Of a stretch of DNA of 64,000 nucleotides, positions 974-4,853 are shown in pieces. Made by a program: the position numbers and the translations under genes. The stretch is taken from positions 1-64,000 of the forward strand of contig NZ_JACDNP010000005.1 of the NCBI RefSeq assembly GCF_013839425.1, read 5' to 3'. The notes below the pieces were generated by a model, which saw nothing but the letters and a program-made list of their open reading frames with translations, was not told where the DNA came from and did no database searches. Numbering within the stretch: position 1 is the first letter of the stretch; the number at the start of each line of letters is the position of its first letter. Origin of the DNA: Halorhabdus salina. Lineage in GTDB: Archaea > Halobacteriota > Halobacteria > Halobacteriales > Haloarculaceae.

Positions 974-995
974 GATTCAAACATCTCTTTGAGTC
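974..995. promoter_or_regulatory. Operator-like inverted repeat before the HTH regulator
   Basis: GATTCAAACA, 2 nt, then TCTTTGAGTC: a 22-bp inverted repeat with one mismatch. It ends 39 nt before the regulator ATG at 1035. A near-identical palindrome (1691-1712) ends exactly 39 nt before the lipoprotein ATG at 1752. The position is immediately upstream of where the BRE/TATA should be. Likely binding site of the neighbouring regulator, by inference. Confidence 0.65.
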
Positions 996-1034
996 TGCCA
1001 TAGGGACATTCTACCCCAAACAGATAACACAACT

Positions 1035-1679
1035 ATGTCTTCACTACTACCCTTGAAACCCACCCCCAGAACAGCTTCAGATCGTGATTTGGAACCGAGG
1101 CTCGTTGGATTCGAAGATGAATCCGCGGAACAGATTCTATCGGCGGTCACCTCAACAACAGCACGCCGCATCCTCAACCAAATCTATACCGAACCAATGA
1201 CAGTATCGGATATCGCTACTGAGATTGACTCCTCAGTACAGAATGTCAGCTATCATCTCGACCGACTTCGAGACGCGGAGTTAGTGGAAGTCATCGAGAC
1301 GTGGTATTCGGAACAAGGGCGCGAAATGGATGTATATGCCCCGACCAATAGCGCTCTTGTCCTCTTTGCGGGAGCAGAACGAACAACTCCGTCACTCACG
1401 ACTGCGTTGCGTCGCGTCTTCAGCGCAGTCGGTATTGTGGGGGTTGTCAGTGCAATTGTCCATGTACGCTGGTCAGTACTGACACCCTCACCATCGTCCC
1501 GGAGTGTTGAACTCCCCATTCAGCAACCTGACCCAACCATGTGGGAGATGCTCGTTACGTTCGGGACCGGCCCCGGTGGGTTCGTTCTAGGGGTCGGCGT
1601 CTTCCTGATCCTGTTCTTCTTCGTGGCGTGGTACTGGCGAACGTATCGTCCAGCACGGAGCCACACTCAATCGATGTGA
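1035..1679 (+). CDS. Membrane-anchored winged-helix (ArsR-like) regulator
   Basis: 214 residues. Residues 30-90 form a winged-helix DNA-binding domain of the ArsR type (ILSAVTSTTARRILNQIY, then SDIATEIDSSVQNVSYHLDR as the recognition region). Two hydrophobic segments follow, about 129-147 and 181-200, so the DNA-binding domain should be cytoplasmic and tethered to the membrane with a short external loop between. The 72-nt gap to the following lipoprotein gene contains an inverted repeat that also precedes this gene, suggesting auto-regulation and control of the lipoprotein. Composition is less GC-rich than that of neighbouring core genes, which fits an acquired islet. Ligand unknown. Confidence 0.8.
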   Translation: MSSLLPLKPTPRTASDRDLEPRLVGFEDESAEQILSAVTSTTARRILNQIYTEPMTVSDIATEIDSSVQNVSYHLDRLRDAELVEVIETWYSEQGREMDVYAPTNSALVLFAGAERTTPSLTTALRRVFSAVGIVGVVSAIVHVRWSVLTPSPSSRSVELPIQQPDPTMWEMLVTFGTGPGGFVLGVGVFLILFFFVAWYWRTYRPARSHTQSM

Positions 1680-1690
1680 GTGGTTTCCGG

Positions 1691-1712
1691 GACTCAAAGA
1701 CGTCTTTGAATC
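1691..1712. promoter_or_regulatory. Operator-like inverted repeat before the lipoprotein gene
   Basis: GACTCAAAGA, 2 nt, TCTTTGAATC: a 22-bp inverted repeat with one mismatch, ending 39 nt before the ATG at 1752. Similarity to the upstream site continues into the following ~24 bases (both run TCTG..ATAGG, then end in CCCC). This is the second member of the pair described at 974-995. Confidence 0.65.
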
Positions 1713-1751
1713 TGGGATAGGACGATACTTGACCCCTTCCAATGGAAGTAT

Positions 1752-2714
1752 ATGGAACGTAGAACGTTTCTGGCAAGTGCTGGAATTGGCCTCACAACCG
1801 CAGTCGCTGGCTGCACATCCCAAGCAGCATCGAGTGACTCAACGGAAACGGACTCAGGGGAGACGAGCACGTCCACGGGTACACAGACTGAGACAGACCC
1901 GATGGAGGATGCAACGCACATCGAAACTGATGCAACCGCCGAACGAACTATCGGGACTGCATCGCTCGAAGAGCGTGGCCTCCGAAACACGCACCACGTG
2001 GCATTCACGAATCCGACAGAAAGGACCCACAAGGGAACAATTACGATTTCGAAGGCTAGCGAGCCGGTGTTCGAGGAATCCGTGGAACTCGAACCGAACG
2101 CGAGCATCATTGGGTCACTGACCGATCTCGGGAGATACAGCGTAGGCGTCTCGATTCCCGAATTGGACGCGGAGGAGACGATCTCCGTCGAACCCAGCCA
2201 ATTTACCTGTAATGTGACCAGGACGACAGTCAGCGTACAAGACGACAATACGCTCGATTCGATGGCTGTTTCGACGCGAATGGCATGTCCCGGTGTCGTC
2301 ACCAAGACAGTACCCGCCGATGGGCTAGCGTCGTATACACTCGGCGACGACCCGAGTCCTGCGGATACGGGGGAATTTAGCCACACGCTCATGCTTCAGA
2401 ACCCGTTGGAGGAAACGTGGACGGCCCGAATTCTCGTCGAGAACGACTCGACAGCGCAATTCGACGGCGTCTACACGGTCGAGCCCGAGGGAACTGTGTT
2501 GCTGACCTTCACTGAGAGTGATACGTACACGCTCTCGATGAGCGTACTCAAAACCGAGGCCACGGTGACTGAGCAGATCACTCCCGAAAACTTCAACTGT
2601 AACGAATCCTCGACCCGAGCGAAGATCGACGCTGCAGGAAAACTCACGGCGAAAACCGTCTCGACGCGTATGGCTTGTGACGTCGAGACAAATTCGACAA
2701 ACGAGTCCTCGTAG
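1752..2714 (+). CDS. Tat-exported lipoprotein with two repeated domains
   Basis: 320 residues. The N-terminus MERRTFLASAG..VAGC is a twin-arginine signal with a lipobox; Cys21 would be lipidated and anchor the protein outside the membrane. A Ser/Thr/Glu-rich linker follows. The rest is two tandem domains of about 110-130 residues, each closing with a Cys-Asn pair, about 20 residues, and VSTRMAC. The four conserved cysteines could form disulfides or bind metal. I recognise no enzyme motif. The gene follows the membrane-anchored HTH regulator and has its own copy of the shared operator, so it is probably the regulator's target. Confidence 0.8.
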   Translation: MERRTFLASAGIGLTTAVAGCTSQAASSDSTETDSGETSTSTGTQTETDPMEDATHIETDATAERTIGTASLEERGLRNTHHVAFTNPTERTHKGTITISKASEPVFEESVELEPNASIIGSLTDLGRYSVGVSIPELDAEETISVEPSQFTCNVTRTTVSVQDDNTLDSMAVSTRMACPGVVTKTVPADGLASYTLGDDPSPADTGEFSHTLMLQNPLEETWTARILVENDSTAQFDGVYTVEPEGTVLLTFTESDTYTLSMSVLKTEATVTEQITPENFNCNESSTRAKIDAAGKLTAKTVSTRMACDVETNSTNESS

Positions 2715-2827: not shown

Positions 2828-3053
2828 ACGAGGCGAACGTCGATCGACGAACGGAGAGAGTCGATCGGGATTTGAACCGGACCCAGACGGTCGCTCACTT
2901 CGTTCGCGCTGCGACTGGTAGGGCTCAAATCCAGGTGTACCATTTGCTCCTCGCATGTTTGCTCGGAGCAAAACGGTGGGGCTGGGAGTTCGCCGGGTAT
3001 CACGAGGCGAACGTCGATCGACGAACGGAGAGAGTCGATCGGGATTTGAACCG
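2828..3053. repeat. 52-bp perfect direct repeat beside tRNA-Ser relics
   Basis: The 52 bases at 2828-2879 are repeated without change at 3002-3053 (both start ACGAGGCGAACGTCGATCGA and run into GATTTGAACCG, the T-arm complement of tRNA-Ser). Perfect conservation against decayed surroundings suggests a recent duplication. Confidence 0.85.
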
Positions 3054-3262: not shown

Positions 3263-3294
3263 GCTTCGCTCGTCACGTCCGTTCCTCGCAGAAG

Positions 3295-3378
3295 CGGTGG
3301 GGCTGGGATTTGAACCCAGGAATCCGTGAGGATACCTGCTTTCAAGGCAGGCGCAATGGGCCGCTCTGCCACCCCACC
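3295..3378 (-). tRNA. tRNA-Ser(UGA)
   Basis: An 84-nt class II tRNA on the minus strand. Acceptor arms GGTGGGG/CCCCACC with discriminator G, anticodon stem CCTGC/GCAGG around loop CTTGAAA (anticodon TGA), a long variable arm (TCCTCACGGA region) and a T-arm CTGGG/CCCAG with loop TTCAAAT. No CCA is encoded. Its 3' end faces an array of its own decayed 3' fragments. Confidence 0.95.
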
Positions 3379-3470: not shown

Positions 3471-4853
3471 ATGTCCGATCGTGATCCGCTCTCGGCCGTC
3501 TCACCACTCGATGGCCGGTATGCACGCTACACGGAACCACTGGTTCCCTACACCAGCGAGTCGGCGCTCATCCGCGCCCGCGTCCGCGTCGAAGTAGAGT
3601 ACCTGATCGCCCTCGCGGACCTTGAGAAAACACCACTCGAAATCGACGCCGCTCAACGCCAGCACCTTCGGGCCATCTACGAAGATTTCGACGAGGCGGA
3701 CGCTGCGCTCGTCAAGCAAATCGAAACCACCGGAACCGAAACCTACGATGCCACCAACCACGACGTCAAGGCCGTCGAGTATTTCCTTCGGGAACGCCAG
3801 CCAGCGGGCCTCGAGGCTGATCAGTGGCTGCACTTCGGCCTCACCAGCGAGGACGTCAACAATCTCGCCCACCGACTGCTGCTCAAACCGGCCGTCGAAG
3901 ACGTCATTCTGCCCGCGTTGCGGGACGTCCGGGACGCACTGATCGATCTCGCTCACGACTATCGCGATACGCCGATGCTGTCTCGCACGCATGGCCAACC
4001 GGCGACGCCGACCACCTTCGGCAAGGAGATGGCCGTCTATGCCTCCCGTCTCGGGCGCGCGATCGGGCGGGTCGACCGAGCAAGTGGCGACCTCGCTGGT
4101 AAACTCGCCGGCGCGTCTGGCACCTATGCGGCCCATCACGTCGCCTATCCAGACGTCGACTGGCCGACCTTCGCCGAGTCGTTCGTCCGCTCGCTGGGCC
4201 TCGAACATGAACCACTCACGACGCAGGTCAATCCCTGTGACGACCTCGCGGCGCTGTTCGACGCCCTCCAGGGGGCCAATCGCGTCCTGCTCGATCTGGA
4301 TATGGACGTCTGGCTGTACGTCGCCGATCGGTATCTCGGCCAGCAAACGGCCGACGGTGAGACGGGGTCCTCGACGATGCCCCACAAGGTGAACCCGATC
4401 GACTTCGAGAACAGTGAGGGCAACCTCTCGAAGGCCAACAGCGACCTCGACTTTTTGGCCGGGTACGTCACCAACTCCCGGCTCCAGCGGGACCTCTCGG
4501 ACTCGACGGTCAAGCGGAACATGGGTGGGGCCCTGGCCCACTGCCTGATCGGCTATCGCAAACTCGAAACCGGGCTGGGCAAGGTCGTTCCCAACGAGCA
4601 GGTGATGGGTGACGATCTCGAAGCGACGCCGGAAGTCATCGGCGAGGCCGTCCAGATGATCCTCCGCCGGGAGGGTCACGGCGACGCCTACGAGCAGGTG
4701 AAAGCCCTCACTCGCGGCGAGGACGTCACGCTCGCGGACTTCCGGGCCTTGTTCGCGGAGTTGGACGTCGATCCCGATGTGCAGGAGGAACTGGCTGCGC
4801 TGACGCCAGCCTCCTATACAGGGCTGGGCGCAGAACTGGCCGACCACACCTGA
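3471..4853 (+). CDS. purB: Adenylosuccinate lyase
   Basis: 460 residues, normal length for PurB of the fumarase/aspartase superfamily. It cleaves SAICAR and adenylosuccinate, releasing fumarate, in purine synthesis. The superfamily regions are clear: TSED at 125-128, the catalytic-histidine region RTHGQ at 172-176 and the signature loop SSTMPHKVNP at 300-309 with the catalytic serine. The protein is cytoplasmic and homotetrameric in the family. It stands alone, 92 nt beyond the divergently oriented tRNA-Ser. The ATG at 3471 gives the conserved SPLDGRYAR start region. Confidence 0.97.
   Translation: MSDRDPLSAVSPLDGRYARYTEPLVPYTSESALIRARVRVEVEYLIALADLEKTPLEIDAAQRQHLRAIYEDFDEADAALVKQIETTGTETYDATNHDVKAVEYFLRERQPAGLEADQWLHFGLTSEDVNNLAHRLLLKPAVEDVILPALRDVRDALIDLAHDYRDTPMLSRTHGQPATPTTFGKEMAVYASRLGRAIGRVDRASGDLAGKLAGASGTYAAHHVAYPDVDWPTFAESFVRSLGLEHEPLTTQVNPCDDLAALFDALQGANRVLLDLDMDVWLYVADRYLGQQTADGETGSSTMPHKVNPIDFENSEGNLSKANSDLDFLAGYVTNSRLQRDLSDSTVKRNMGGALAHCLIGYRKLETGLGKVVPNEQVMGDDLEATPEVIGEAVQMILRREGHGDAYEQVKALTRGEDVTLADFRALFAELDVDPDVQEELAALTPASYTGLGAELADHT

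Follow-up and report, generated by a model that had tools for sequence, protein, structure and literature searches.

Membrane-bound one-component regulators of surface structures have been described in Sulfolobus acidocaldarius as ArnR and ArnR1 (PMC6396743), and transmembrane transcription regulators (TTRs), which combine a DNA-binding domain and a transmembrane region in one polypeptide, are also known in archaea (PMC10269533). The main text of the TTR census features no word starting with 'halo', and the family, operator and regulon considered here are not described there. Promoters with a regulator site close to the basal elements have been described for GvpE (the GvpE UAS; PMC4390858) and TFB-RF1 (PMC5937170), where an element of 13-20 nt sits at a fixed, close distance upstream of BRE/TATA and the TFB-RF1 site is palindromic. 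In Haloferax volcanii, the regulator CsmR recognizes a semi-palindromic site (TATCA-N4-TGATA) adjoining the TATA box and controls motility and cell shape (PMC13286277).

Here, we analysed a 64,000-nucleotide stretch of the Halorhabdus salina genome (the window) that encodes a predicted membrane-anchored regulator followed by a lipoprotein, each preceded by a copy of the same palindrome. The features of this locus are:

974-995, plus strand: operator 1, upstream of the regulator gene, an imperfect 22-bp palindrome (GATTCAAACATCTCTTTGAGTC) with the core TCAAA-N6-TTTGA at 977-992
1007-1013, plus strand: putative TATA-like element of the regulator promoter (CATTCTA, about -28 to -22 from the ATG), assigned from sequence and its AT-rich block
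1035-1679, plus strand: predicted membrane-anchored regulator of 214 aa, with a winged HTH at the N-terminus (about aa 33-90) and two C-terminal hydrophobic segments
1691-1712, plus strand: operator 2, upstream of the lipoprotein gene (GACTCAAAGACGTCTTTGAATC), with its core at 1694-1709
1724-1730, plus strand: putative weak TATA-like element of the lipoprotein promoter (GATACTT, about -28 to -22)
1752-2714, plus strand: Tat lipoprotein of 320 aa, with an RR signal, lipobox Cys21, an acidic linker and two tandem Ig-like domains

Judged by analogy, ArnR/ArnR1 of Sulfolobus is the closest known functional counterpart of the window regulator. Both have an N-terminal HTH and two C-terminal transmembrane helices, and both are associated with inverted-repeat operators upstream of the promoter and with surface structures, where the effect of ArnR on its target is positive and a positive effect is proposed here. 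In contrast to ArnR, no HAMP or sensor domain is present (no Pfam match, with only ∼35 residues from the wing to the first transmembrane segment). The ArnR operator is TCGAC-N5-GTCGA, with two boxes at flaB (PMC6396743), whereas TCAAA-N6-TTTGA usually occurs as one box at many promoters, and the autoregulatory sites and lipoprotein partners seen here also set the two systems apart. The window protein is not an ArnR, since neither the HAMP/sensor region nor the ArnR operator was found. It does fit the TTR definition, given a DNA-binding domain and a transmembrane region in one protein, with membrane insertion predicted. GvpE is leucine-zipper-like, and neither GvpE nor TFB-RF1 is described as membrane-anchored in the accessible parts of their papers. 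These systems are likened to the present one by promoter layout and not by sequence comparison.

The preliminary description of this locus had reported two 22-bp sites, each ending 39 nt before an ATG (1035 and 1752), with a likeness that continues into the promoters. Both observations were confirmed in the sequence, where the likeness runs on through TCTG..ATAGG. Operator 2 matches the reported pattern (GAYTCAAASA-N2-TCTTTGARTC) perfectly on both strands, while operator 1 departs from it at a single minus-strand position. Even when up to three mismatches were tolerated, no further copy was present in the window, where shuffled sequences gave an expectation of 0, and a search of the whole genome (2.86 Mb) returned, besides the pair, a single site with three mismatches. 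The invariant portion of the operator is narrower than this pattern and corresponds to the 16-bp core TCAAA-N6-TTTGA. In addition, the sequence GGATAGGaCGATA flanking the lipoprotein TATA-like element is strongly conserved.

Pfam analysis identified an ArsR-type winged HTH in the regulator (HTH_20, E 9e-13; HTH_5, 39.4 bits against a cut-off of 22). Hydrophobic segments lie at about aa 129-149 (TM1) and 182-201 (TM2), separated by a loop of ∼32 aa, and KD windows scoring at least 1.6 start at aa 124-132 and 173-185. The earlier assignment as a membrane-anchored winged-helix regulator therefore holds, with anchoring and membrane topology predicted from sequence. The protein contains no cysteines, so it has no Cys metal site, and it scores 38.9 bits against an NCBIfam ArsR/SmtB metalloregulator cut-off of 55, which together set it apart from typical metal-sensing ArsR proteins. 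Its domain order is that of the haloarchaeal PF24267 (HVO_1552_C)/HTH_20 family, and two paralogs in the same genome (C9, 63.6 bits; C5, 32.2 bits) pass the Pfam gathering score of 27, while the window protein falls just under it at 25.2 bits. The AlphaFold model (pLDDT 46) was too poor to use, and a PDB sequence search returned only a weak HTH match (PH1932, 1uly).

Homologs of the N-terminal part were found in 362 of 392 genomes (E <= 1e-20), so the family spans almost the whole order. The window-type regulator (E of about 1e-48 or lower in that search) is patchily distributed, with 96% identity in Halomicrobium katesii, 81-86% in several Halorubrum, 85% in Halobellus, 75% in Halosimplex and more diverged copies elsewhere. 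A recognition helix of the form [ST]S[VL]QNVxYH is strongly conserved in two diverged regulator lineages that have the operator upstream.

The adjacent gene encodes, as previously described, a two-domain Tat lipoprotein, with an RR motif, the lipobox MERRTFLASAGIGLTTAVAGC and two mutually homologous domains of ∼100 aa each (28% identity, E 1e-16), each of which ends in a C-x25-C pair (C153/C179 and C283/C309). Structure prediction yielded two tandem beta-sandwich domains, for which a fold search returned only generic Ig-like matches (PepT extracellular domains, with low TM-scores). The META/HslJ model PF03724 scored 27.9 bits against a threshold of 24, with the best stretch covering only 34 of 109 positions, and the structural model shows two Ig-like beta domains. 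The lipoprotein is present in 34 of 293 genomes, 28 of which have a window-type regulator, and its gene directly follows that of the regulator in almost all loci; no sampled genome appears to have a window-type regulator without the lipoprotein. These co-occurrence counts are slightly approximate, as the genome sample was reconstructed from listed identifiers.

The pair looks to have been acquired horizontally and recently. Its GC content is 54%, compared with 61% for the window, and it is bracketed by two 31-bp direct repeats (792-822 and 2973-3003; 94% identical), features that fit recent acquisition, which would explain the 96% identity to Halomicrobium katesii. The repeats resemble the 3' part of a nearby tRNA-Ser gene (3294-3378) and may possibly be remnants of integration at a tRNA gene. 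A plasmid search with the pair gave no match. In Halomicrobium katesii, homology appears to break off at the operator, but the idea that a transferred unit ends there was rejected, as the break is only an insertion of ∼140 bp in that genome. This insertion lies directly at the first operator (L037, about 3790-3948), which is intact, and the aligned pieces around it overlap by nine bases (GATTCAAAC), resembling a target-site duplication. Non-coding, tandem-like duplications also flank the pair (681-736/737-792, 56 nt, 86%; 2825-2892/2999-3066, 68 nt, 94%), and a small cold-shock-like protein is encoded on the minus strand at 136-339, just upstream of the GC-poor island.

Conservation of the palindrome before homologous genes, on which the preliminary description had made its reading depend, was assessed by alignment of upstream regions after identical regions had been dropped. 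The core was retained with at least nine of its ten bases in 31 of 33 distinct regions upstream of the regulator and likewise in 31 of 33 upstream of the lipoprotein, and it precedes both genes even where the proteins are only ∼45% identical. In these regions it nearly always lies 42-44 nt from the start codon, although a small number of regulator genes begin 48-50 nt away. Six orphan lipoproteins, encoded with no adjacent regulator, also retain 9-10 of the 10 core bases.

The core is not limited to the pair. The H. salina genome contains eight cores, compared with one for the reversed pattern, and five of the eight lie 43-44 nt before an ATG, where the downstream genes encode the regulator, the lipoprotein, a paralogous membrane-anchored regulator (C5), a secreted SIMPL-domain protein (C22; PF04402, E 2e-44) and a small membrane protein (C1). 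As a rough estimate, ∼2,900 genes in 2.86 Mb give a ∼0.6% chance of a gene start within a 6-nt window per random site, so five of eight at the canonical spacing has a chance probability of the order of 1e-10. The C5 promoter features two operators exactly 54 bp apart, both in this genome (L096, 3276 and 3330) and in genome G195 (L105, 2021 and 2075). The remaining two cores are ∼124 nt before the start of a Tat lipoprotein gene and between convergent genes. These associations are also conserved across orthologs: SIMPL genes carry the core, at nine or more of its ten bases, in 28 of 29 distinct upstream regions, 42-46 nt before the start, while C5 regulator genes carry it in all 30 distinct upstream regions (15 at 10/10 bases and 15 at 9/10). 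Over all four gene groups, most start codons fall 42-46 nt past the core.

Across 75 core sites in 10 genomes, coding-like frames begin most often 43-48 nt away (32 starts, compared with 0-18 in other 6-nt bins), a conservative count because the coding filter misses the window genes, whose third-position GC is low. The genes at this distance mostly encode secreted proteins, lipoproteins (including further, unrelated Tat lipoproteins), small membrane proteins or regulators. Under the coding filter, roughly one in two of the 75 cores lacks a gene start at the canonical spacing, which implies that some are chance occurrences or serve otherwise. Counts over the host family (93 genomes) gave 422 cores and 56 reversed controls, a ratio of about 7.5, whereas 20 genomes without a close regulator, some of which contain weaker homologs (e.g. 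G003), have 61 cores and 30 controls. As the reversed control ignores dinucleotides, the baseline ratio is about 2 rather than 1.

C9-type paralog regulators lack the operator upstream of their own genes. The core palindrome does recur near regulators of this type (L097 1711, L109, L239, L242, L246, L249, L255 and L272), and in H. salina this copy is downstream of the C9 regulator gene, between convergent genes. A different palindrome (ACAAAA-CG-GTTTTGT/AACAGATTTGTT) lies only ∼24 nt before the start of C9-type regulators (L084, L085, L087, L088, L094 and L095) and is possibly their own operator or promoter. The gene of a further paralog regulator, C20, and a lipoprotein gene point away from each other, and CCAAA-N6-TTTGA lies in the stretch that separates the two (L098, 2715-2838).

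Together, these results point to a regulon that we consider real with a probability of about 0.72: the sites are operators of a haloarchaeal regulon under a family of membrane-anchored, ArsR-like winged-helix regulators, dimers of which bind the core and probably activate their own gene along with envelope genes. As the operator precedes two separate paralog lineages, we infer that this family is the strongest candidate for the binder. A regulator dimer, held at the membrane by its two C-terminal helices, would bind TCAAA-N6-TTTGA and control its own gene (autoregulation) together with genes for surface or membrane proteins. The adjacent lipoprotein, exported and lipid-anchored, would be a dedicated partner or output that, once co-induced, may act as a reporter on the regulator, or damp it, via the outer loop that joins the membrane helices, and the signal would be the state of the cell envelope.

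Whether the bound dimer activates or represses was considered from promoter geometry. When promoters were aligned on the core, a TATA-like, AT-rich block was seen 14-19 nt past the core and the start codon ∼43 nt past it. Leaderless genes of haloarchaea show this arrangement, and among the protein-coding transcripts of H. volcanii 72% are leaderless (PMC4983044). The core would accordingly lie directly before BRE/TATA, at about -59 to -44; the regulon genes of H. salina are thus inferred to have leaderless starts. A palindrome at a fixed distance just upstream of BRE/TATA is the layout of an upstream activating element, a functional likeness that carries no claim of sequence kinship. GvpE elements adjoin the BRE with a requirement for close spacing and GvpE activates (PMC4390858); TFB-RF1, also an activator, has its palindrome ahead of a weak BRE, likewise at a conserved distance (PMC5937170). 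This shared layout makes activation the likelier sign for the core, in which case the bound dimer would recruit TFB/TBP.

Alternatively, the bound dimer could repress by blocking access of TFB to the BRE until an envelope signal frees the site. ArsR-family proteins are usually repressors. The targets of CsmR, whose motif adjoins the TATA box, rise in the deletion strain (PMC13286277), so operator position alone is no proof of activation. Against repression, the core stops ∼10 bp short of the expected BRE and leaves the TATA element and start uncovered, the spacing varies very little, TATA boxes at the lipoprotein promoters are poor, and the second C5 site, 54 bp further up, is expected of an upstream activating element. 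On balance, we regard repression as somewhat unlikely.

Many genes with the operator do not adjoin any regulator gene, as would be seen if an unrelated cytoplasmic global regulator read the operator and the membrane-anchored proteins were merely among its targets. This is quite improbable, given that the operator precedes two separate lineages of the membrane-anchored family, that the excess of the motif is greatest where this family occurs and that autoregulation is the simplest reading.

The preliminary description had instead viewed the two genes as a self-contained sensing pair. Several observations favour a cassette whose members control only each other: the genes are adjacent in nearly all loci and apparently mobile together, the extended 22-bp pattern is matched within the genome by only these two sites, and only lipoprotein promoters have the extended flanks GACTCAAAG..CTTTGAATCTGGGATAG. 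Yet the core stands at equal spacing before the SIMPL gene, the small membrane protein gene, another regulator and other lipoproteins, and orphan lipoproteins retain it, so the idea of a closed pair was not upheld and the probability that we assign to it is low. What does find support is the sharing of an operator by the two genes, conserved in ∼33 distinct pairs, within a target set that is wider than the pair.

Finally, the similarity of the regulator and lipoprotein promoters means that one may have arisen by copying of the other, but a duplication artefact or chance likeness with no regulatory meaning has a negligible probability, as the core is kept at fixed spacing down to ∼30-45% protein identity and before unrelated genes, and a chance palindrome is ruled out by the genome scan and the phylogenetic footprints.

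Building on the activating regulon favoured above, a broader picture can be put forward tentatively, and we would not yet bet on it: a haloarchaeal envelope response in which several paralogous regulators use a common operator code (at about -51) to activate genes for lipoproteins, SIMPL proteins and small membrane proteins, with the window pair as a horizontally mobile module whose lipoprotein acts as an external sensor or feedback subunit.

In the literature searched, which covered HVO_1552, SIMPL/DUF541 proteins of haloarchaea, envelope stress in these archaea and ArsR regulators tethered to the membrane, there was no earlier account of the operator or regulon, no published work specifically on HVO_1552 and no described haloarchaeal transcriptional response that ties cell-surface state to surface-protein genes, and archaeal membrane-bound transcription factors are known mainly from ArnR. 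The shared operator and fixed promoter geometry provide a ready list of candidate regulon members, and the system is directly testable in genetically tractable haloarchaea. From the genomic patterns, related regulators bound to the membrane appear to control surface and membrane proteins in a network that extends across the haloarchaea and had not been described before, and the operator offers a probable function for an unstudied regulator family with close homologs in nearly every genome examined (362 of 392).
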